Positions 3,909-20,595 of a stretch of 20,767 nt of DNA are shown here, in pieces. A program made the position numbers and the translations under genes. The notes under the pieces were generated by a model. The model saw only the letters and a program-made list of their open reading frames with translations. It ran no database searches and had not been told where the DNA came from. Each line of letters starts with the position of its first letter. The stretch's first letter is position 1. Source of the DNA: a virus; the IMG/VR virus record IMGVR_UViG_3300025649_000017, positions 1 through 20,767 of that record; one strand, 5' to 3'.

Positions 3909-4868
3909 TTAATCCCAGCCGTCAACCAGATCGTCAATATCTTCGTCATTGACCTCGGGCTTTTCTGCCTTCTTTGTGGTCACCTTTGGCTCTTCGTCAG
4001 CCGTCTCGCTGAAAGACAAACCCTCTTCCTTGGGCTCAGCTTTTGGTTCAGCCTTTGCCTCAGCCTTTGCCTCAGCCTTTGCCTCAGCCTTTGCCTCAGC
4101 CTTTGCCTCAGCCTTTGCCTCAGCCTTGGGCTTGTCAGCAGAGCCACCGTCCGTTTTGGACACTGTCATAGTGATCGCCTTTTGAGCCTCATCGCTATCG
4201 CGATTTACAAGAGCTTGCTTCAACTCTTCCTCAGTCAGCGGGCGTGCTGGCTTGAAATAGAGCTTCGGCGTATCGCTGTTCTCGTCGAAATACATCTCTG
4301 TGATAACAGCCATGGAGGGTGTCTTGTGTGCCTTGAGGTATTTGGCGTAGGCCTGCATACCCATACGACCGTCCTTTGCCTCACCGAACAGTGACGTTGC
4401 TGGAAGCTGGATTTGATACACCTCATCATTCGCACCCTCGAGAGTGATAGCAAGACGTTGGGAGAAGCGGCATGCTCGGCTGTCACCTGCACCTGAACCT
4501 TTGATGTTCATCGGGCAGTCCATGCAGCGCGCGGCTTGGCGACCTTCTTCGGGGACATCTGGCGAAGGAACCTTGGTATCTGCTGACCAACATGTGGGCG
4601 GAGCAGGGTTGTCGGGGTTATACTCGCCCTCAAAGTATGTGCGAGCAATATTTGCAGCGTTGACGATGTTGATCTTGAGTGAGCCCGAGCTGTTAACATT
4701 GACCTGCTCACCGGCGACGATCTGACGGAAGCGACCACCACGGATACTGATGCGTGGGACGCCTGCGCCACCGCCATTACCTGCAAGTTTGTCGTCTGTC
4801 TCAAGAAGCGTTTTGAAAAGATCGCTGCTCACAAGTGAGTTGCCTTCAAAGAGTGTCATATCTGACAT
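3909..4868 (-). CDS. Probable single-stranded DNA-binding protein with (AEAK)n linker and acidic tail
   Basis: 319 residues. The N-terminal part (about 1-210) would be the binding core; it has four cysteines (CWS near 93, CMDC near 115-118, CRFS near 132) that may hold a structural metal. A repetitive A/E/K/P linker follows (about 245-285), then a strongly acidic end, DEDIDDLVDGWD. A core, a flexible linker and an acidic aromatic-ended tip is the architecture of bacterial and phage SSBs, where the tip recruits partner proteins. No family was recognised by sequence alone, so SSB is inferred from architecture and from the position just upstream of the primase gene. The ATG at 4868 has GGAGAATAACT upstream and lies two bases after the HTH gene stop. 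Confidence 0.6.
   Translation of the reverse strand: MSDMTLFEGNSLVSSDLFKTLLETDDKLAGNGGGAGVPRISIRGGRFRQIVAGEQVNVNSSGSLKINIVNAANIARTYFEGEYNPDNPAPPTCWSADTKVPSPDVPEEGRQAARCMDCPMNIKGSGAGDSRACRFSQRLAITLEGANDEVYQIQLPATSLFGEAKDGRMGMQAYAKYLKAHKTPSMAVITEMYFDENSDTPKLYFKPARPLTEEELKQALVNRDSDEAQKAITMTVSKTDGGSADKPKAEAKAEAKAEAKAEAKAEAKAEAKAEPKAEPKEEGLSFSETADEEPKVTTKKAEKPEVNDEDIDDLVDGWD
4033..4128 (-). repeat. 12-bp tandem repeat encoding the AEAK linker
   Basis: Eight consecutive 12-bp units are visible. Five are identical (GCCTCAGCCTTT on the + strand, 4057-4116), flanked by degenerate units at 4033-4056 and 4117-4128. The unit length is a multiple of three, so gain or loss of units changes linker length in four-residue steps without breaking the reading frame. 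Confidence 0.95.
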
Positions 4869-4870
4869 AG

Positions 4871-5182
4871 TTATTCTCCGTCTAGGTTGCGGCTATAAAT
4901 GGCCGTTGTTGATGGTGTTGGCTCGGATGTATCGAAGTCCATCTCGAGTTGGGTATCTGAGTCCACGTTGCCAATGGGCGCAGGTGTTTCACAAGTCTCG
5001 TCTTCCTCTGAGGATCTCAACGCAGCCTCCACTTCGGAAAGCTTGAAGCGGTAGGTATCCCCTGCCTTAAGGTAGGTGTTGCGGGGTATGATCCCTTTCC
5101 TAACCCATGCACGGATTGTTGAGACTGAGACTACAAAGTGGCGAGCCACATCTGCGATTTGCACGTATGGTTGATCAGTCAT
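4871..5182 (-). CDS. Small MerR/excisionase-like helix-turn-helix protein
   Basis: 103 residues. Residues 6-55 form a MerR/Xis-type winged helix: VQIADVARHFVVSVSTIRAW, then RKGIIPRN and the wing-like YRFKLSEVEAAL. The rest (about 57-103) is acidic and probably disordered. No dimerisation coiled coil or effector domain follows, so it resembles small excisionase-like or architectural regulators rather than full MerR sensors. The ATG at 5182 shares one base with the stop of the upstream gene (TAATG) and has GAGGAAAT before it. It might control phage promoters or act in DNA transactions; its target cannot be told from sequence. Confidence 0.75.
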   Translation of the reverse strand: MTDQPYVQIADVARHFVVSVSTIRAWVRKGIIPRNTYLKAGDTYRFKLSEVEAALRSSEEDETCETPAPIGNVDSDTQLEMDFDTSEPTPSTTAIYSRNLDGE

Positions 5183-8155: not shown

Positions 8156-8245
8156 TCATTGCTGTTCCATTTTTTGCAGATTGCGCTCAAGATCGTAACG
8201 TTTTCTTTGGAGCTTTTTCAGCTCCTTCTTTTCTTCATCGTACAT
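8156..8245 (-). CDS. Possible 29-residue lysine-rich helical peptide
   Basis: The ATG at 8245 has GGGAG seven bases upstream, inside the last codons of the polymerase gene, which it overlaps by 11 bases. It encodes 29 residues with a heptad-like charged helix (KKELKKLQRKRYDLERNLQ). The stop overlaps a nine-codon frame (ATG 8159) whose own TGA overlaps the start of the Cas4-like gene. The chain of overlaps suggests either a real micro-gene or a translational relay. No family is recognised. Confidence 0.4.
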   Translation of the reverse strand: MYDEEKKELKKLQRKRYDLERNLQKMEQQ

Positions 8246-10136
8246 CGACCCACTCCCATTTCCCTTCATCATTTTCCACAATCTCCCCGAGCTCAACGAG
8301 GTTTTTCCAAGCCTTGCTGTTCTTGCGAGGTATCTTTTCTACAAAGGGCCGTTCCTTTGCACCCAAGTCCATGAGAAGGGACTCACATTCGCGTATATAC
8401 CATCCATAGTCAACATCGCTAGGGAACTCGTCTGGTATATCCATCAAAGGTTTGGCACCTTTTGACTTCGGAACTGAGTTTCCATTCTTGAGATAGGTGA
8501 TGTTGGTTGAGGTTTCCGTGGAGTAATACCAGCGAATAGCCTTGCCCAGTGGAACCTCATCCTTGACTGCACCGCCCGTCACTGTGCGCAGCGATAGAAA
8601 CATGGAAATGTCTGTGCACCCCTTGATTGTTACGTCAAACGGCACCCCGTTTGTTAGGTACTCAATAACAGCCAACGGACAGATCGGACTCTGCGGGTTC
8701 TTTGACAGAGTGACTGGACCGAAAACACCCTTACCCTTGACGGTGCCGTCGGGCTTCACAGCAATGTAGTTGTTCACATCACGAGAATAGAGTGATTTAT
8801 ACACTGTCTCTTCTGTATCGAGCCCTGTGTGCTTCTCCCATTTCCCAATCAGGGTGTTGACTTCATCGAGCCTGTCACGTGGGCACTCGATAACGATACC
8901 GTCAGTGTTGGCCGATACGACAGGGATAGATCGCTTCTCAAGTGCCTCGATCAGCATGAGCAGAGTTAGTTGCCCAGACAGAGTTGTCCTGATCATAAAG
9001 TCTGGAGAATACAATGTGCTGTATTTGCTTGATGTCTTACCGAACGTCCCATTGAGAACAATCTTTAGAGAGTCTGACTTGGACTTATCCCCAGCATGTT
9101 TTGCTTCAAGACGCTCATCCAAGATGGATCTGTAGATCGGGTTGAAGTGGCGCCCAAAGCCGCCGGGTTCCATGTTCATATTCAACATCATGGCCGGGTA
9201 GTAGCTCGCCACATCACGGTCCACCAGTATTGTCTCGTCGTCGCTGTGGTGTGCGACCTCTGACTCTTGACTGTGAAGACCTCCGATACCAATCTTGTAG
9301 GTGCTCCCACCGATGGTGATCTTTAGGTTCTGAATTTCAGCGGGCATCTTGACGTGCCCCGTGTCCTTTTTGATAACCATGTCAGCTTGGCACACGGTAT
9401 TGAACACATCCTGCAACACAGGTGTGCTGAAACGGATATAGCTCGGAGGATCGTAGCGGAACACGCTGCTCTTGGCGGGCACCTTTTGAGGGGCGCCACC
9501 TGTGATCTTCTCATACTCTGACTTTAGAACAGCCTCAGCAATCTGTGCGTCTGACTTTGACATGAGATCAAGACCATAGCGCTCACCCATCACTCTGCGC
9601 AGATCAATCTGCTTCTTGAGCGCCCTGTATAGGTCGAAAGTTACGGCAGTGTCGTTCTTACAATACTCTCTGAGAATAGGCACCTGCTCTGGGGTTATCT
9701 CAGCTGTGTGCTCGATAGGTAGCTCCTGTAACCTCTTGCTGCCGAGACGTCCCCCGTAGAGCTTGAGCCCGACCATTGACGGAGCAACCTCGATCAGGTC
9801 CACATGGTTGAGGTCGGGAGCTTTCAGACCCTCCTGACGGTAGAATGTCCAAGGTTTCATATCCCTCTCGATGATCTTGCTGCTCGCGCTTTTCAGCAGT
9901 GCAGTGTTCTGATTTATCAGCGAAAGGGTCAGGATTGGGATGTCGTAACTGTTACCGTTGAAGGTAACAATCTCAAACTTTTCATTCTGAAGTATCTTCA
10001 GAATAGCCTCGGGATCAAAACTGCTCGTATCCCCATTGAAGATTTCGAACCGTTTCGAACGACCATCCTCCAACATGAACAAGGCCAAGAAGTAATTCTT
10101 GTACACCTCGATGTCCAAAGATACAGGGGTCTTCAT
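8235..10136 (-). CDS. Family B DNA polymerase, short phage type
   Basis: 633 residues. The exonuclease domain has Exo I SLDIE (D8, E10), Exo II TFNGNSYDIP (N60, D65) and Exo III YCKND (Y158, D162). The polymerase domain has motif A DRDVASYYPAMM (D308 as the metal ligand), motif B KIVLNGTFGK (358-367) and motif C SANTDGIVI (408-416). Motif C is NTD, with asparagine in place of the first aspartate of the usual DTD; D412 remains. It replicates the phage genome with proofreading. The ATG at 10136 overlaps the stop of a 25-codon exonuclease-like stub (ATGA), with GGTGAGGA just before it. It is short compared with cellular family B enzymes, and no protein-priming insertions were identified. Confidence 0.88.
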   Translation of the reverse strand: MKTPVSLDIEVYKNYFLALFMLEDGRSKRFEIFNGDTSSFDPEAILKILQNEKFEIVTFNGNSYDIPILTLSLINQNTALLKSASSKIIERDMKPWTFYRQEGLKAPDLNHVDLIEVAPSMVGLKLYGGRLGSKRLQELPIEHTAEITPEQVPILREYCKNDTAVTFDLYRALKKQIDLRRVMGERYGLDLMSKSDAQIAEAVLKSEYEKITGGAPQKVPAKSSVFRYDPPSYIRFSTPVLQDVFNTVCQADMVIKKDTGHVKMPAEIQNLKITIGGSTYKIGIGGLHSQESEVAHHSDDETILVDRDVASYYPAMMLNMNMEPGGFGRHFNPIYRSILDERLEAKHAGDKSKSDSLKIVLNGTFGKTSSKYSTLYSPDFMIRTTLSGQLTLLMLIEALEKRSIPVVSANTDGIVIECPRDRLDEVNTLIGKWEKHTGLDTEETVYKSLYSRDVNNYIAVKPDGTVKGKGVFGPVTLSKNPQSPICPLAVIEYLTNGVPFDVTIKGCTDISMFLSLRTVTGGAVKDEVPLGKAIRWYYSTETSTNITYLKNGNSVPKSKGAKPLMDIPDEFPSDVDYGWYIRECESLLMDLGAKERPFVEKIPRKNSKAWKNLVELGEIVENDEGKWEWVDVR

Positions 10137-11020: not shown

Positions 11021-11463
11021 GCTCTAATCGCTCCGACTGGTTTGTTTTCTTGGTTCTGATACTTCCCGTCGTATTGGACAGGGGTGACTACTTCATGGAA
11101 AATGCACTGTGCGATACCAGTTCCAGCAGGCACGTAGAGCGGCTTCCACCCGTGATACACAAGCTCAAGCGTGAGCCAACCCCTCCATCCGGGCTCGATC
11201 ACCGTGTTGAACACAGATAGCCCTCGGCGAGCCCAAGTGGACTTGTCATGGACGATAGCCACGAGATTGTCAGGCATGTGGAAATACTCGAATGTGCTGG
11301 TAAGAGAGAATCGTTTGAACGGATGAAGCAGAACATCTTGCTTGATACGAACATCATAGCCCGCCTCTGACATGCCGTAACTCACACCATTGCTCTTCAT
11401 CTTTTCTTCCATGAGAGGTCTAAGCGGTTGAGCGTCTCTCAGTTCACGTTGGTTGATAATCAT
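11017..11463 (-). CDS. dcd: dCTP deaminase/dUTPase-family nucleotide enzyme
   Basis: 148 residues, shorter than the roughly 190 of bacterial Dcd, as is usual in phages. Motifs: MSEAGYDVRI (31-40), DKSTWARRGLSVFNT (73-87), VIEPGWRGWLTLEL (88-101, with the E-P-G turn and E100 as the likely catalytic glutamate region), VPAGTGIAQCIFHE (111-124) and a GKYQNQ end. The trimeric fold would deaminate dCTP or hydrolyse dUTP, keeping uracil out of phage DNA and supplying the dTMP pathway. Which of the two reactions dominates cannot be told from sequence. The ATG at 11463 shares one base with the preceding stop (TAATG). Confidence 0.87.
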   Translation of the reverse strand: MIINQRELRDAQPLRPLMEEKMKSNGVSYGMSEAGYDVRIKQDVLLHPFKRFSLTSTFEYFHMPDNLVAIVHDKSTWARRGLSVFNTVIEPGWRGWLTLELVYHGWKPLYVPAGTGIAQCIFHEVVTPVQYDGKYQNQENKPVGAIRA

Positions 11464-11639
11464 TATTCCATCTCCTTAATCTGTGCCACATAGCGCTGAA
11501 TGCGCTCTTCCAGTATTGCCAGATCGGTGCTGACGTATGACGGGCGGACCCCCTGATACTTGGCTGACAACTCGTCGCGCTGCTTGCGCCAGCTTGCCAC
11601 TGCGTCTTTAAGGTCGTCGAGTTCTTGTTGTTTGGTCAT
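11463..11639 (-). CDS. 58-residue coiled-coil protein
   Basis: The ATG at 11639 overlaps the stop of the preceding gene (ATGA), and the TAA overlaps the start of the dcd-like gene (TAATG); both junctions support translation. Two charged helices (KQQELDDLKDAVASWRKQ and LAILEERIQRYVAQIKEME) are separated by a proline-containing turn GVRPSYV. This resembles a helical hairpin, perhaps a small adaptor or inhibitor. No family is recognised. It is under 60 codons and easily missed. Confidence 0.65.
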   Translation of the reverse strand: MTKQQELDDLKDAVASWRKQRDELSAKYQGVRPSYVSTDLAILEERIQRYVAQIKEME

Positions 11640-12048: not shown

Positions 12049-12222
12049 TCATTGGGTTACGTGATCGACCAGCCCATAGAAGGACAAATAGAGGAAGATG
12101 TATGGCCAAGTCACACAGGTGTCCCATGTGGTCACGTGCGCACCATAGTTCTTGGCCAGATCAATAATAGCGAAATACATAGCCGCTGCCCCCATGCCGT
12201 ATATAAGGAGTGCTGCACTCAC
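12049..12222 (-). CDS. 57-residue membrane protein with two predicted membrane helices
   Basis: A GTG start at 12222 overlaps the stop of the preceding gene (GTGA) and has AGGAG seven bases upstream. Residues 4-24 (LLIYGMGAAAMYFAIIDLAK) and 38-54 (TWPYIFLYLSFYGLVDHV) are hydrophobic, giving a short two-helix protein with a polar loop between. Holins have this general shape, but no lysis gene is adjacent, so the role is open; an early host-membrane factor is equally possible. It has under 60 codons and a GTG start, so it is easily missed. Confidence 0.7.
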   Translation of the reverse strand: MSAALLIYGMGAAAMYFAIIDLAKNYGAHVTTWDTCVTWPYIFLYLSFYGLVDHVTQ

Positions 12223-12737: not shown

Positions 12738-13034
12738 TTATTGTGTTGCTGAGGTTAGTAGATCACTAACCTCGTTCATGTTTTCTTCGTTGATCACCAA
12801 GGCAAGACCTCCTGCAGCGGCGATGTCGTCAAGGTTCTTCTGTTGCAGCGGAGTTGGCTTGTTCTTTCCAGCCTTACACTCCATTCCGAAAAACAGTCCT
12901 CGGTAGCACCCGACAATATCTGGGACGCCACTACTTCCGTAACCCCCCGTTACGGGGGGGAAGAAGTATGCCCCGAGGCCTTTAAGTTTGGTAATCGCAA
13001 CCTTCTTCACCTTCGCTTCTGGTGTTGATGCCAT
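12738..13034 (-). CDS. VRR-NUC domain nuclease
   Basis: 98 residues, a single-domain VRR-NUC protein of the PD-(D/E)XK fold, common in phages. Motifs: PEAKVKK at the start (E6), GSSGVPDIVGCYRG (34-46, D39), FFGMECKAGKN (48-58, E52 and K54) and TPLQQKNLDDI (61-71, Q64). It would cut branched or structured DNA such as Holliday junctions; Mg2+-dependent activity is inferred from the family. The ATG at 13034 has TAGGAGG five bases upstream; the GTG at 13040 overlaps that site and was rejected. The last codons carry a perfect GTTAG-N7-CTAAC palindrome (12754-12770), and codons 25-31 contain a C/G hairpin. Confidence 0.88.
   Translation of the reverse strand: MASTPEAKVKKVAITKLKGLGAYFFPPVTGGYGSSGVPDIVGCYRGLFFGMECKAGKNKPTPLQQKNLDDIAAAGGLALVINEENMNEVSDLLTSATQ
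12754..12770. promoter_or_regulatory. Palindromic site 1, GTTAG-N7-CTAAC
   Basis: Arms extend to nine bases each (GAGGTTAGT and ACTAACCTC, 12751-12773). It lies in the last codons of the VRR-NUC gene, 29 bases upstream of the next start. It is one of eight exact copies in the right half of the window. Confidence 0.75.
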
Positions 13035-13043
13035 ACGCACCTC

Positions 13044-13301
13044 CTATTCATGGTATATCCAAAAAGTATCTTCGTTTATTCTGACCCCCACACCGTCGAT
13101 CTGATTGGGCGGAGGCTTAGGATCAGTCATGGCGAGCACGGCAAGTTTGCGTTGAACCCAGTCTGGTAAGTGAGAAGTATCAAGGTAGACCCCCTCCAAC
13201 TCAGAGTCAATCGCATCCATGCCAATACATACCACATTGGTTACTTTCGTGCCTCTATCTACAGTCACACGATAAGTCTTATCGTCACTATTCCACGACA
13301 T
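13044..13301 (-). CDS. Small phage protein sharing a C-terminal domain with its upstream neighbour
   Basis: 85 residues. The ATG at 13301 has AAGGAATATT upstream and overlaps the previous gene by 14 bases. The C-terminal half (HLPDWVQRKLAVLAMTD...DGVGVRINEDTFWI) resembles the end of the 13288-14127 product (KLPEPIKGRLAVLSILED...GVGGRINDKEYYV). The shared pattern is L-P-x(4)-K/R-LAVL-...-GVG-x-RIN-x(3)-Y/F. I recognise similar segments in other phage hypothetical proteins; no activity is known. Its position directly next to its homologous segment suggests duplication. Confidence 0.65.
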   Translation of the reverse strand: MSWNSDDKTYRVTVDRGTKVTNVVCIGMDAIDSELEGVYLDTSHLPDWVQRKLAVLAMTDPKPPPNQIDGVGVRINEDTFWIYHE

Positions 13302-14127
13302 AATATTCCTTATCGTTGATACGGCCCCCAACCCCATGGACGAAGTTTCCGTCTTCCAGAATTGATAACACCGCGAGGCGTCCCTTTATGGGCTCGGGTA
13401 GTTTTTCTGCCGAATAATACGCACTGTTCGGATACAAGAAGGTGGCCTTGTCTGACATAGAGGCAGTCTCGTAACAGTAGTCACCAAGGTAAACGTATGT
13501 CACACTCGGCGTTTCAAGTAAGAGGGTTTTGTGTTCGTCCAGTTTTTTAAAGTAAGAGTTCAATCTGCCGGTCATTGAGGGGTCAACGAACTCGTGCCCC
13601 ATGTCAACAAGTCTCCTGAGCTCTTGGATCACCGGGGTGTCTGCGGTAATCATAATGTTAAGTCCGAGGTCCCTAGCCACATTTCTCTTTTCGTAACTAA
13701 CCTCGCGTTCAACCTCTGCCATTTTGGTTTTTATTTGATTTCTATGGACTCTTGCCTTATCCCCCACGGAATATGCCGTCATAAACTGCTTGGCTGACTT
13801 TACAGCGGTCTTCAGGTTGATGCTCTCCTTGGCGTGCTGCATCTTGTGGTCCCGATTACGGAACCTGCGGATTTGGCGAGAATGGATAATGTAGGTGTTG
13901 ACCAACGTGCCATCTCTAACTTTTGACGACACCTCCAAGGTGCCCCGAACATATAGTTCACCCTCAACGTAGAGATAGCCAGAACGTGAGGTGAACGGAA
14001 CGAGATGGGCCAAGGGAATAGTTTTCTTGATCTCGGCAAAGAACTCAACCAGTCGACAATCAGTCCCCTTGTCGGAGTAGGCTATGACGCTCTTTGCGGT
14101 TGCAACAGTGATGTGTGGGAAGGTCAT
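13288..14127 (-). CDS. Hypothetical phage protein, 279 residues, with shared C-terminal domain
   Basis: The ATG at 14127 is preceded by GAGGATACTGACC; an in-frame extension to 14244 runs into the neighbouring gene and was rejected. The N-terminal half has alternating strands (SGYLYVEGELYVRGTLEV) and a basic patch (RQIRRFRNRDHKMQHAK). The middle is helical and charged (KTKMAEVEREVSYEKRNVAR). The last 55 residues match the end of the neighbouring 85-residue protein. No enzyme motif, membrane segment or cysteine cluster was seen. It may bind nucleic acid, judged only from its basic patches. Confidence 0.6.
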   Translation of the reverse strand: MTFPHITVATAKSVIAYSDKGTDCRLVEFFAEIKKTIPLAHLVPFTSRSGYLYVEGELYVRGTLEVSSKVRDGTLVNTYIIHSRQIRRFRNRDHKMQHAKESINLKTAVKSAKQFMTAYSVGDKARVHRNQIKTKMAEVEREVSYEKRNVARDLGLNIMITADTPVIQELRRLVDMGHEFVDPSMTGRLNSYFKKLDEHKTLLLETPSVTYVYLGDYCYETASMSDKATFLYPNSAYYSAEKLPEPIKGRLAVLSILEDGNFVHGVGGRINDKEYYVVE

Positions 14128-15664: not shown

Positions 15665-15730
15665 TCAGGACTCCTTTGTTGTAATTTGACGTAAGGTCAG
15701 AGAATACTCCTTGGGGTATACCTTGGACAT
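15665..15730 (-). CDS. Possible 21-residue peptide between the VWA and MGYRS genes
   Basis: The ATG at 15730 shares one base with the stop of the VWA gene (TGATG) and has GGGAGG eight bases upstream. The stop at 15665-15667 falls one base before the next ATG. It encodes MSKVYPKEYSLTLRQITTKE plus S. The junctions are exactly those of the other small genes, but at this length coding cannot be proved. Confidence 0.4.
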   Translation of the reverse strand: MSKVYPKEYSLTLRQITTKES

Positions 15731-16926
15731 CACAAGTCCCTCCCGTTGATGTGCACGGTCTTACCGCAGTCAGGTGACGCTGACTTGTTGTCGAGTATTG
15801 TCCAGAGCACAGGTGCAGACCATGATCCCCATCTGCCAAACACGTAACCATCTGTCAGAACGATCACTGCCTGAGGTTTGATACCCTCAGCGGTTAGGTA
15901 GTCGCTAACACAGTTGACGTCTGTGCCACCGCCACCGCGCGGCTTTGTTGACTGCACCAGTGTATCAAGCTCATGCGTCTCATAGCGCTCGTCACCCACA
16001 ACCTCGTTACCCCAGTATAGGAGCCGCACAGCCTCGGGGTGGACAGTATCGGCGATACCCTTGACCTCGCTAAGGAAGTCAGCAAGCTCGGTGTCACCAA
16101 TGGAACCTGACGTGTCGATAGCAATCACAAGCTCACCCACCTGTTCAGATATTCCGCTCGGCATGTAGACGCCTGAGCTGATGAAGCGACGGTTGGGTCT
16201 GCGCCATGTTGAATAGTCGCTACCTGCACAGGTTGTCTGGATGAACTCACGCAACACCTCGCGCCAATCAACCTGAGCCTCCATGAGATCCTGTAGGTCA
16301 CGAGACACATCTGCACCTGTCTTACCTGCCATGAGAGCGCCTTGGCGAATTGCCTCGTCAAGCTCACGCGCAAGCTCCTGCTTTTCTTCTGCTGTGAACT
16401 CTTTGGCTCCGTCCCAATCGTGCTCATCGAAGCCAGTTCCCCCGCCAGAACCAGCGCCGCCGTTCTTCTCCATATCGTCCTTTAGGTCGTTGTAGACTCG
16501 TGCGCTGTCCCACTCTGCATACTTCTGGTCATAACATCCCCTCTCCAACGCACCTGTCATAGTGGCAAAGCCATCGCTGTTGTCGTGCTTGATCTTGTGG
16601 TTGATCACATAGTCGCACGCCATGTTCGCAAGCTGCGGGTTCTCGTCGTATAGATGGCGCCAAGTGTGGAGGTGTTGATAGAGCTTGTGATACACCTCGT
16701 GCAGAACCAAGAAGCGCAACTCGGGATCGTTGAGTGAGTCAACAAAGGCACGGCCATACCTTTCGTCGCGACCATTGGTGCAAGCGGTCGGCACAGTGTC
16801 GTCAACTGTGCGATCTCCGATCATCAAGACACCTGCCAGCGCAACGTAACGTGGGTTTGACATGATGGATACAACAGCCTTGGACAGACGTTGCTCGGTG
16901 GATAGTGATTGTCCCATAGCTAACAT
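15730..16926 (-). CDS. DUF2201-like protein: HExxH metallopeptidase-like region plus VWA domain
   Basis: 398 residues. The N-terminal region has VLHEVYHKLYQHLH with HExxH at 76-80 and a further H at 85, then ANMACDYVINH (100-110), the layout of the putative metallopeptidase region of DUF2201-type proteins. A G-rich acidic linker (156-175) follows. The VWA domain starts at VIAIDTSGSIG, where D271, S273 and S275 form the MIDAS site; T335 in GGGGTDV and D359 in LTDG complete it. VWA proteins of this kind partner with MoxR AAA+ ATPases, here encoded just upstream in the same direction. It may be a substrate adaptor or metal-dependent effector. The ATG at 16926 has AAGGATAACAAGTC before it and overlaps the previous stop. 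Confidence 0.83.
   Translation of the reverse strand: MLAMGQSLSTEQRLSKAVVSIMSNPRYVALAGVLMIGDRTVDDTVPTACTNGRDERYGRAFVDSLNDPELRFLVLHEVYHKLYQHLHTWRHLYDENPQLANMACDYVINHKIKHDNSDGFATMTGALERGCYDQKYAEWDSARVYNDLKDDMEKNGGAGSGGGTGFDEHDWDGAKEFTAEEKQELARELDEAIRQGALMAGKTGADVSRDLQDLMEAQVDWREVLREFIQTTCAGSDYSTWRRPNRRFISSGVYMPSGISEQVGELVIAIDTSGSIGDTELADFLSEVKGIADTVHPEAVRLLYWGNEVVGDERYETHELDTLVQSTKPRGGGGTDVNCVSDYLTAEGIKPQAVIVLTDGYVFGRWGSWSAPVLWTILDNKSASPDCGKTVHINGRDL
15893..15909. promoter_or_regulatory. Palindromic site 2, GTTAG-N7-CTAAC
   Basis: An exact 5-7-5 palindrome inside the VWA gene, after the MIDAS threonine, where it encodes V-S-D-Y-L-T. Same family as the other sites. Confidence 0.7.
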
Positions 16927-17258: not shown

Positions 17259-17422
17259 AACTCAGGCTCCTTGTTTATGGTCGTGACCTCGGCATTGAGC
17301 GCCCCGACTGTGGCTGTGAACTCTCGACGGGCCTCAGCGGCGGCGTCGGCAGGGTCGGCCGCCGTAACGCGAATGACGCGTGAGACTAAACCCTCGACGG
17401 TAACGTAGTATCGCTTCATCAT
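17168..17422 (-). CDS. Small protein with an apparently extended C-terminus
   Basis: 84 residues; the ATG at 17422 overlaps the MoxR stop (ATGA), with a second ATG three bases later. Residues 2-55 (KRYYVTVEGLVSRVIRVTAA, DAAAEARREFTATVGAL, EVTTI) look like a compact beta-alpha-beta fold seen in small phage proteins. The last 30 residues are read across the start of the next gene and are low quality (LLRDGGSFCSGRLPPGTSG), suggesting that the original stop was lost. Function is unknown. Confidence 0.55.
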   Translation of the reverse strand: MMKRYYVTVEGLVSRVIRVTAADPADAAAEARREFTATVGALNAEVTTINKEPELCSASELKHTPLLRDGGSFCSGRLPPGTSG

Positions 17423-18513
17423 TTCTTGTCTGATCCAAAGAGGTAGTTGTTTTCCATTGCCCACGACGTGAAAAGCTTGTTGGTCATAATCATAGCGGCC
17501 TTGTTATAACGTGGTGAACGCACGCCGTTGGCGAACAATCCCTGAGCCTCAGCATCAAGGCGCCTCATGTATTTCATCCATGCGTCTACCCAGTCTTTGT
17601 CGATTGTAGACAACGTGCGATACACAACCATGCACACCGCCGCGGCGCTGTCGGGAACCTTGGCATTCTCTGGGTCATCCTTGATAGACTGCAAACTTGG
17701 AAGCTGGTCCGCCAACTTGATGAAAGCCATGAGATCCAGCGCGGCGCGATCACCGATTGTTCCCATGAGGGAGGCAGTCAGGGTCTGATCATCAAAGCTG
17801 GCACGCTCGTGGATGATGTCTGATGCTGCGTGAAGCGAACGAGGTGTAACAAAGGCAGCGCGCTGCTGCTTGGGGTGGAAGATATACGGATTGCTGTCAG
17901 GGTCTTTGATCTCCTCGAAGGATGCGAACAGGTGTGGGTTGTCTTTGACCCAGCCCAAGAGTGAGTGGTCGATACTGTTGTTGATACCCCAGTCAATCCA
18001 AGACATGTGATCTGTCTTGCGAACCTGAACAACAGTCATGCGGTTGCGAGCATGGGGAGGGAGCAGATCACCCACACCCTCGGCCCCTTTGTTTGTCGTA
18101 GCAAACACGATGCTGTCAGGGTGTAGTGAGTAACTACCAATCTTGCGCTCCAAGATAACACGCAACATGGCGTTCTTCACAGCTGGGTTGGCCTTACCGA
18201 ACTCGTCAATCATAAGGATGATCGGGCCTTCAAGGTGAACACCCAGCTCCTCATTGGGAAGGAAGCGAACGAAGCCCTGCTCGTCCATACTCTGCATGGA
18301 TGGGACTGTGATGTCACCGAGGTCTTTGGTGGTGCAGTCGAAGTAGCACTTGCTGTGCGTTGGCAACATGTCGCCCAAGGTGTGAATGGTAGATGATTTG
18401 CCGTTACCCATGTCACCCTGCATGAGGACTGTGCGCGTTTTACCCACCGCTTTGATAAGCGACACACACTGCTCGAGGTCGAGGGCATACATCTGTTGTG
18501 CTGAATTGGACAT
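17419..18513 (-). CDS. MoxR-type AAA+ ATPase (CobS-like)
   Basis: 364 residues. Walker A GDMGNGKSS (33-41), Walker B IILMIDE (98-104), sensor 1 region FATTN (137-141) and a candidate arginine finger in HARNRM (154-159) define an AAA+ module of the MoxR/CobS group. The C-terminal half is helical lid and an undefined extension. MoxR ATPases act as chaperone-like remodelers with VWA partners; a VWA/metallopeptidase-like gene follows two genes later. Cobaltochelatase CobS is the alternative name such phage genes receive, but no CobN is in this window and the VWA neighbour here carries HExxH. The ATG at 18513 has GGAGACGACCA upstream; a promoter and operator lie just before it. Confidence 0.85.
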   Translation of the reverse strand: MSNSAQQMYALDLEQCVSLIKAVGKTRTVLMQGDMGNGKSSTIHTLGDMLPTHSKCYFDCTTKDLGDITVPSMQSMDEQGFVRFLPNEELGVHLEGPIILMIDEFGKANPAVKNAMLRVILERKIGSYSLHPDSIVFATTNKGAEGVGDLLPPHARNRMTVVQVRKTDHMSWIDWGINNSIDHSLLGWVKDNPHLFASFEEIKDPDSNPYIFHPKQQRAAFVTPRSLHAASDIIHERASFDDQTLTASLMGTIGDRAALDLMAFIKLADQLPSLQSIKDDPENAKVPDSAAAVCMVVYRTLSTIDKDWVDAWMKYMRRLDAEAQGLFANGVRSPRYNKAAMIMTNKLFTSWAMENNYLFGSDKK

Positions 18514-18541
18514 TGGTCGTCTCCTGTGTAAGTATATAAAT

Positions 18542-18558
18542 GTTAGTCAGTAACTAAC
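18542..18558. promoter_or_regulatory. Palindromic site 3, GTTAG-N7-CTAAC
   Basis: An exact palindrome in the leader between the 18599-18627 promoter and the MoxR ATG, about 40 bases downstream of the predicted transcription start. A bound regulator here could block transcription, or the RNA hairpin could act on translation. Confidence 0.8.
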
Positions 18559-18567
18559 GGGCTGGTT

Positions 18568-18595
18568 ATATGTGAGACTGTGTAACCTCACATAT
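18568..18595. promoter_or_regulatory. Inverted repeat at the predicted 5' end of the MoxR transcript
   Basis: Nine-base perfect arms, ATATGTGAG (18568-18576) and CTCACATAT (18587-18595), flank ten bases. The predicted transcription start (near 18592) falls in the right arm, so this is either an operator overlapping the start or a hairpin at the very 5' end of the message. Confidence 0.65.
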
Positions 18596-18598
18596 CTA

Positions 18599-18627
18599 TT
18601 TGTATCAGAACGTGACTAATAAGTCAA
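18599..18627 (-). promoter_or_regulatory. sigma70-type promoter for the MoxR-VWA genes
   Basis: Read leftward: -35 TTGACT (18627-18622), 17 bases, -10 TACAAA (18604-18599). The spacer and -10 carry CGTTCTGATAC, shared with the 5601-5629 promoter. It lies directly after the DUF6948-like stop. Confidence 0.65.
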
Positions 18628-18638
18628 CTGATCTTGGG

Positions 18639-18967: not shown

Positions 18968-19915
18968 TCAGATGTTCAAGCTAGGCAGAGCAGCAATGGC
19001 CGCGTCCACCTTGCGTTTAGTCTCGATGCGCAGATGGTTATCCGCTCTCAGCCCGTCGGGTGTGACACCACTCAGTGCACTCTCCAACTGATCTGCCATT
19101 GCTGACATCTGGCTGTCGTTGTTGATGTTGCATGAGCGGAGAAGCCCAATCATGTCAGCAACATTTGATACTAGAGCCCCGTGAAATATCTTGCGATCTG
19201 CGATGTCCGTGTAGTCCAAGCGCTCTGACATGTGAGCCAGCGCCCCATACACCCTGTTCCAGATACTCTTGATGGCGTTGTTATACTGGTCCGCGTATAA
19301 CTTCTCGTAGTCTCGGCGCAGCTCAGCGGCGGCATCATTGCCAACGTCGATGCGAAAGTCACCTGCGTCTGGCAGTGGGAGATAGTTGAGGTGAAACCCG
19401 AACTTGGCTTGAAGTGACTCGGGCGTTGGGTAGTCGTCGATGTTGAACAAGTTACCGAGCTTCACTTGCGACCGTGCAACCTCGTAGCTGTAGCTTGTTA
19501 GGAACACACTAACGAGAGTGTTGAACTCACCAATGGCGGCGCTCATACGCTCGTTGTATTTAAAATAGAAGGTCGTCGGCAACAAGCGCAGACCACTGTT
19601 GGACCACGGCATTGTCATCTCTGTGTGGATAGTCCTCGCTGAGTTGATGAAGTTCTGAATGTCCTTGAGCTCTTTGGAGTTACCCAAGAGCTTCTTTGTG
19701 ACGCTGGCCACACCCGCCTCGGCTTGGCTCGATGTTGTGATCTCTCCAGATGCTGCCCGATCCTTCTTTCGGCCAGACCAATTTGAGATGTTCAGCTCGA
19801 CCAGCATGGCGGAAGAACTAATCGACGGCACACTGCGAATTGTGGGGGCTGAGTGAACCAATGTTAGCGTGTCGCTAACCTCGTTTACCGCGTTTACTGT
19901 GTTTGAAGTCGTCAT
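18968..19915 (-). CDS. DUF3150-like protein, probable partner of the MoxR/VWA set
   Basis: 315 residues. The ATG at 19915 has AGGAGACAGACG upstream; an in-frame ATG at 19948 lacks a site. The body is helical: VTKKLLGNSKELKDIQNFIN (about 77-96), PWSNSGLRLLPTTFYFKYNE, FGFHLNYLPLPDAGDFRIDV, DYEKLYADQYNNAIKSIWNR, then a C-terminal helix set. The long segment with KYNERMSAAIGEF and P-x-PDAGDF fits DUF3150, a family that in other phages and plasmids sits with MoxR-type ATPases and VWA proteins. No catalytic residues are known. Two GTTAG-N7-CTAAC palindromes lie inside the gene (19497-19513 and 19863-19879) and another in its leader. The family assignment is from memory of the pattern and needs a profile search. 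Confidence 0.6.
   Translation of the reverse strand: MTTSNTVNAVNEVSDTLTLVHSAPTIRSVPSISSSAMLVELNISNWSGRKKDRAASGEITTSSQAEAGVASVTKKLLGNSKELKDIQNFINSARTIHTEMTMPWSNSGLRLLPTTFYFKYNERMSAAIGEFNTLVSVFLTSYSYEVARSQVKLGNLFNIDDYPTPESLQAKFGFHLNYLPLPDAGDFRIDVGNDAAAELRRDYEKLYADQYNNAIKSIWNRVYGALAHMSERLDYTDIADRKIFHGALVSNVADMIGLLRSCNINNDSQMSAMADQLESALSGVTPDGLRADNHLRIETKRKVDAAIAALPSLNI
19497..19513. promoter_or_regulatory. Palindromic site 4, GTTAG-N7-CTAAC
   Basis: An exact copy inside the DUF3150-like gene, encoding V-S-V-F-L-T. The half-site sequence is identical to the other copies; the centre (GAACACA on +) is unrelated. Confidence 0.65.
19863..19879. promoter_or_regulatory. Palindromic site 5, GTTAG-N7-CTAAC
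   Basis: An exact copy 36 bases downstream of the DUF3150-like ATG, encoding V-S-D-T-L-T. Arms extend to seven bases (GTTAGCG and CGCTAAC). Twelve bases before it (AACGAG...) match site 1 closely. Confidence 0.7.
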
Positions 19916-19979
19916 CGTCTGTCTCCTGTGAGTGTTTAGTTGTATCATTTAGTGATTGTGAGTAGTTGTTTTTTCTAAG

Positions 19980-19996
19980 GTTAGCGATAACCTAAC
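19980..19996. promoter_or_regulatory. Palindromic site 6, GTTAG-N7-CTAAC
   Basis: An intergenic copy between the 19999 gene stop and the DUF3150-like start, with arms extended to eight bases (AAGGTTAG and CTAACCTT, 19977-19999). Well placed to act as an operator for the gene at 19915. Confidence 0.8.
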
Positions 19997-20322: not shown

Positions 20323-20339
20323 GTTAGTGGTCACCTAAC
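20323..20339. promoter_or_regulatory. Palindromic site 7, GTTAG-N7-CTAAC
   Basis: The right arm contains the TAG stop of the glycine-rich gene, and the left arm runs straight into the AAGGAGA ribosome-binding site of the next gene. Site 8 has the same arrangement. Confidence 0.8.
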
Positions 20340-20583
20340 CGAATCCGCTGCCGTCGCCCTCGCCCTCGCCGTTGGCGCTACCTCGACCGTCGCCTCCGCC
20401 CCAACCTCCACCGTTGCCGAAGCCTCGACCGTTGGCGTTACCGCGACCGCTACCTCGACCGTCGCCGCTGCCGTCGCCGCTGCCGTTGGCGTTACCGCTA
20501 CCTCGACCGTTACCTCGACCGCTGCCGTAACCGCGACCGCTACCGCGACCGCGACCGCGACCGTCTCCTACGTCTTTGTCCAT
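20335..20583 (-). CDS. Glycine-rich low-complexity protein, 82 residues
   Basis: The ATG at 20583 has AAGGAGAACGAC upstream; a GTG at 20607 lies in the operator and was rejected. After MDKDVGDGRG the protein alternates glycine with R, S, N, D, Y, F, W, A or E for its whole length, for example GRGRGSGRGYGSGRGN. Nearly every second residue is G, so it is disordered and, in its first half, RG-rich like RNA-binding or condensate-forming tails. The DNA is made of repeating six-base codon pairs that can expand or contract. Clear start and stop signals support translation. It could bind nucleic acid or coat a surface; no family is recognised. Confidence 0.65.
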   Translation of the reverse strand: MDKDVGDGRGRGRGSGRGYGSGRGNGRGSGNANGSGDGSGDGRGSGRGNANGRGFGNGGGWGGGDGRGSANGEGEGDGSGFG

Positions 20584-20595
20584 GTCGTTCTCCTT

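Follow-up and report, generated by a model that had tools for sequence, protein, structure and literature searches.

A palindromic site, GTTAG-N7-CTAAC, in the leader of a MoxR-type ATPase gene of an uncultured phage appears from its sequence context to be one copy of a dispersed, allele-specific DNA operator, of which a phage protein here called Reg is the likely reader and which would serve to shut off early genes, probably by blocking elongation. We put the probability of this reading at about 0.6. The window, that is, the whole stretch of DNA that was analysed, comprises 20,767 nucleotides (IMG/VR record IMGVR_UViG_3300025649_000017).

The leader of the MoxR gene

The MoxR-type AAA ATPase gene (17419..18513, minus strand; phrog_1297 ATPase) is preceded by a 125-base gap at 18514-18638, in which the first-pass annotation had listed a sigma70-type promoter, a nine-base inverted repeat and the GTTAG-N7-CTAAC site. 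All three are present there on the minus strand, and their significance was assessed by dinucleotide shuffling of this 125-base sequence. The palindrome, GTTAGTTACTGACTAAC at 18558..18542, lies upstream of the AGGAG and ATG of MoxR (18525..18511, minus strand) and is far beyond chance, GTTAG-N7-CTAAC occurring in 0 of 3000 shuffles. The inverted repeat, ATATGTGAG-N10-CTCACATAT at 18595..18568, is perfect and overlaps the predicted start, and a perfect 9-bp repeat with a loop of 3-12 is unusual in the shuffles (P=0.004). Outside the near-identical clade its only counterpart was an unrelated terminator-like hairpin, and it was rejected as a shared element; it is specific to the clade and may be the 5' hairpin of a MoxR transcript. 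Rfam gave no match. The hexamers TTGACT-17-TACAAA do lie at 18627..18599, but not above chance: a 9/12 match arises in the shuffled gap with P=0.38, so that the sigma70-like promoter is statistically ordinary in 125 bases, and promoter-like sites across the window are fewer than in shuffled sequence (8 vs 11.2). A promoter in this leader is treated as possible and putative.

These elements had been read as a compact control region in which a dedicated sigma70 promoter, and possibly two regulators, would time the MoxR gene and its partner (called VWA in that annotation; 15730..16926, minus strand, phrog_1314) separately from the upstream genes. Promoter-like hexamers, an unusual repeat and the palindrome are indeed packed into 125 bases, and the longer gap is absent in the relatives shown, so a lineage-specific promoter is possible. 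A site for a trans-acting factor in the leader is strongly supported, but it is not private to MoxR/VWA, since several other genes of the early block also have such a site ahead of them or within them. Separate timing of the two genes is not conserved, because the gap before MoxR in relatives is usually short and contains no more than the palindrome and a ribosome-binding site. The second regulator is likewise unsupported, the 9-bp repeat having no second copy in the window or in sister contigs and no relative outside its near-identical clade. For the gap to be the longest non-coding one of the window, two short ORFs of 57-58 aa (11463-11639 and 12049-12222) have to be counted as genes. With a promoter at chance level and a palindrome that is not local, such a region of local control is unlikely.

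The nearest annotated relatives of the MoxR gene are mostly ATPases of phages of ~70-79 kb (~22-30% identity), and the DNA polymerase encoded at 8235-10136 is closest to those of R7M, AH2 and NP1-type phages, affinities that appear mosaic. In the protein encoded at 3909-4868, AEAK is repeated in tandem close to the C-terminus.

A dispersed palindrome in allelic forms

The window contains eight copies of GTTAG-N7-CTAAC, all listed on the minus strand and always with a spacer of exactly 7 (expected 0.008-0.08), and sister contigs that reach further upstream contain 15-16, tandem groups included. Besides the copy in the MoxR leader, GTTAGGTGATAACTAAC (20596..20612) and GTTAGGTGACCACTAAC (20323..20339) stand directly before the AAGGAG and ATG of a glycine-rich ORF and of the 19999-20334 gene, respectively. 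Three further copies accompany the DUF3150-like gene (18968..19948, minus strand; Pfam match below its cut-off), with GTTAGGTTATCGCTAAC (19980..19996) in the gap upstream, GTTAGCGACACGCTAAC (19863..19879) at the 5' end of the ORF and GTTAGTGTGTTCCTAAC (19497..19513) within it; this gene has a site near its start in several relatives too. The remaining copies are GTTAGCGACTACCTAAC (15893..15909), within the VWA-type gene, and GTTAGTGATCTACTAAC (12754..12770), at the end of the 12738-13040 gene and ~30 nt before the next start (12725).

Relatives were gathered by MoxR-guided searches, which yielded 20 and later 80 viral loci, and a gapped-palindrome search was run in each locus without a prior motif. 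One dominant dispersed palindrome family was found in 85 of 85 related viral entries. These include several that show the same contig in overlapping views and many close relatives, 49 being left once near-duplicates and short entries were removed. Copy numbers were 3-16, against an expectation below 0.04 per listed arm-and-gap combination, the search picking the best of tens of thousands of such combinations. About a dozen alleles occur across the 85 entries, among them GTTAG-N7, GTTAGTG-N3, GTTAGGC, GTTAGTC, TTTAGGGA-N2, TTTACGGA-N2, TTCGGGCA-N2, GTAGTG-N3, GTAGTT-N3 and GTTATCCA-N1. Sites can be near-invariant, with one deviation in 57 sites of the TTCGGGCA class and two in 54 of the GTTAGTG class. 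No published description of them was found in searches of the open literature.

Near-complete genomes have their sites almost exclusively within the early/replication block (e.g. at 27.9-41.6 kb of the 62 kb of G006), whose transcription runs in the direction leading away from the terminase and structural genes. Site midpoints fall outside ORF interiors in 54% of cases, against a background of 14%, and ~46% of sites are within ORFs. Approximately 166 of 444 sites are within 25 nt of an SD-start, and many stand 0-15 nt ahead of a ribosome-binding site, as exemplified in the window by CTAACAAGGAGAACGACATG at 20596.

Several observations concern the neighbourhood of the sites. Short glycine-rich repeat ORFs (GDGRGNGRGSG type) occur in the window (20335-20607) and in a sister contig (L022:11696-12046), each with a palindromic site ahead, and in the same sister contig two small HNH-like ORFs (L022:12197-12559 and 13170-13583) adjoin a tandem-site group. 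Some clustered sites are followed at ~8-14 nt by another motif, GATACCAGTTC or GATACCAGTATC-like (L013:209-300, L001:506-600, L006:2947-3080, L018:770-830, L019:1431-1480 and L020:5573-5630), which may represent a second operator or a promoter element.

Could the sites instead bind an activator that switches on a middle promoter before each gene? The site upstream of reg does lie tens of bp ahead of a plausible promoter in many phages. Across the sites, however, no clear linkage to promoters emerged: -10 elements are not clearly enriched at any fixed distance downstream of them, and many sites leave only ~10 nt to the ribosome-binding site, with no space for a promoter, which makes activation a distinctly unlikely function.

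The closeness of many sites to ribosome-binding sites (0-15 nt) would also suit small RNA leader hairpins acting in translation control, RNase processing or mRNA stability, and strong alleles like UUCGGGC-4-GCCCGAA would, from their sequence, be able to fold. The window site, however, is weak as RNA (-1.9 kcal/mol); inner pairs are mostly non-complementary in the window clade, and shuffling the arms between sites, in this clade and in G013, leaves their inner bases pairing just as well as the actual arms do. In 324 sites of four well-defined alleles, 91 deviations were counted, of which 75 break a pair, 6 keep a wobble and 10 are compensated. Wobbles are not favoured (7 wobble-preserving vs 13 wobble-breaking transitions), covariation between the halves is absent, and the compensatory or wobble-preserving stem variation expected of an RNA leader hairpin was not the pattern found. 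The TTTAGGG class has an excess of changes in the upstream arm that sits at the outermost position, probably because of overlap with the stop codon of the preceding gene. RNA hairpins are thus an improbable explanation.

Nor does a function outside transcription, in replicating, segregating, compacting or protecting the phage DNA, have more than a slim chance: it would accommodate the sites within ORFs and the 29 sites of Rhizobium phage RHph_TM3_14A, which are spread over 50 kb and in part lie in genes, but the sites of the window family are nearly confined to the early block, avoid structural genes and prefer gaps ahead of starts.

Reg and its association with the site allele

The reg gene stands at the head of the early block, with the small terminase gene on its other side; it is fast-evolving, encodes ~170-210 aa and falls outside the window (in a sister contig it is L042:282-863). 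Each of the 55 loci in which it was detected has a single copy, and a match was absent in two allele-bearing loci, L104 and L116. Across 37 non-redundant loci, Reg identity was 0.49 within alleles and 0.185 between them. A partial Mantel test, in which relatedness can inflate the result, gave r=0.59 for the association of Reg with the allele (0 of 2000 permutations) with MoxR and DUF3150-like identity regressed out, both genes serving as relatedness controls. Once Reg was included, the control genes had no association with the allele (MoxR, r=0.05, P=0.14; DUF3150-like, r=0.03, P=0.28).

Natural swaps point the same way. L073 and L074 are 99% identical in MoxR, 96% in VWA and 93% in the DUF3150-like protein but only 10% in Reg, and at the same place in the MoxR/VWA junction one has a TTTAGGGA-type site and the other a TTCGGGCA-type site. 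G016 and G006 are mostly 85-100% identical genome-wide, while their Reg proteins are without detectable similarity; in a table of the G016 ORFs of at least 60 aa, reg is the only early-block gene that is common to G017, which has the same allele, and absent from the two TTTAGGG genomes. A MerR-like HTH protein (window 4871-5182) was considered as the reader and rejected, since it is 91% identical across the G016/G006 allele swap and therefore does not set specificity.

The AlphaFold model of Reg is all-helical and confident (pLDDT 91.6), and that of a second Reg class is mostly helical with a similar helix order (pLDDT 80.7). Neither model has a match in the PDB, and the first has none among viral structure models. 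There is no recognisable DNA-binding domain in Reg and no useful Pfam or PHROG match, one member giving a weak Arc-like match (E 6e-4), and no homologues were found in annotated phages. Comparison of Reg classes by hhalign gave 2% for TTTAGGG vs TTCGGGCA and 48-98% for other pairs; direct homology between the most distant classes is weak, and they are joined by intermediate sequences and gene order. Judged from the allele association and the natural swaps, Reg is the likely reader of the palindrome, which it would probably bind as a dimer. We see an even chance that Reg founds a family of its own among sequence-specific DNA-binding proteins, with an all-helical fold not described before, and that in apparently strictly lytic phages it runs dispersed operators whose specificity diversifies and is exchanged between near-identical phages, all sites changing along with the protein, much like the immunity types of temperate phages.

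The gap between terS and reg, seen for example upstream of L056:6995 and L087:7048, has features of its own. It contains a G-rich tract that is conserved (GGGGGGTGGGGGGTAGGTGGGG type) and a TATAAT-like box directed towards terS; several phages also have, directed towards reg, a TTGNNT-17-CATAAA-like promoter whose leader forms a hairpin.

That a host regulator, for instance CtrA (TTAA-N7-TTAA), reads the sites is very improbable. The spacing of N7 is shared with the CtrA sites of some alphaproteobacterial phages (PMC9437464), but TTAA-N7-TTAA occurs 0 times in the window, alleles differ between near-identical phages and track a phage gene, and several alleles have other spacings and no TTA core.

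Proposed mode of action and comparison with known systems

In the mechanism proposed for Reg and its operators, Reg would be made early in infection and would bind its own upstream site together with the sites before and inside early genes, and early-gene transcription would then be lowered at the turn to late genes, mostly by an elongation roadblock. A roadblock fits better than promoter control because sites abut ribosome-binding sites without an intervening promoter and also sit inside genes. The site upstream of reg, well ahead of the likely promoter, is likewise unlike simple promoter repression. The terminase-reg gap has one site, upstream of both likely promoters, and a further role is therefore possible, such as autoregulation or action on a late promoter. 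Lysogeny immunity was considered and set aside: no tyrosine integrase was found in 15 contigs and no serine recombinase or resolvase in 11, these contigs being possibly incomplete, and no relatives were found in bacterial genome contigs, for which reasons a lytic early-to-late switch is likelier than lysogeny.

Among known systems, the stoperators of the Cluster A mycobacteriophages come closest, but the operators described here are not members of that system. In L5, Bxb1 and TipsytheTRex, 20-30 repressor sites are dispersed mostly in short intergenic gaps, and the stoperator motif and the repressor diverge together between phages (PMC9283540, PMC6550527). Both properties recur here, with many dispersed copies mostly in intergenic gaps and joint divergence of the motif and the candidate repressor. 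Cluster A sites, however, are asymmetric, oriented sequences of 13 bp that are bound by a monomeric repressor with an HTH and a Stoperator domain, in temperate phages (PMC9283540, PMC6550527), whereas the sites described here are gapped palindromes of ~15-18 bp, Reg has no HTH match and matches nothing convincingly in Pfam, PHROG or PDB, and these possibly incomplete contigs yielded neither an integrase nor a resolvase. CtrA sites of alphaproteobacterial phages resemble the present ones as N7-spaced dyads of many copies with a non-coding bias, but they are fixed-sequence sites for a host factor, concentrated in terminal repeats or one gap (PMC9437464), whereas the sequence here is allele-specific and follows a phage gene.

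Among cultured phages, a comparable palindrome set was found only in Rhizobium phage RHph_TM3_14A (MN988472), which carries 29 dispersed GTTACC-type palindromes and has near-identical sisters; none comparable was found in R7M, AH2, Xp15, HTVC023P, HTVC027P, 023Pt_psg01, DSL-LC04 or Rollin. RHph_TM3_14A also resembles the window family in its ATPase-domain, metallopeptidase-domain, SNF2 helicase and VRR-NUC genes, but differs in having no detectable Reg homologue, a wider spread of sites and another allele (TTAC core).

If the proposed reading is true, immunity-like operator specificities would extend beyond temperate phages, and an uncultured phage lineage that is common in environmental sequence would use an unrecognised DNA-binding protein, with about ten natural and probably distinct protein-operator pairs. 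The swap pairs L073/L074 and G016/G006 make a joint change in the specificity of a whole dispersed operator set directly testable, and the culturable RHph_TM3_14A provides an experimental entry point.
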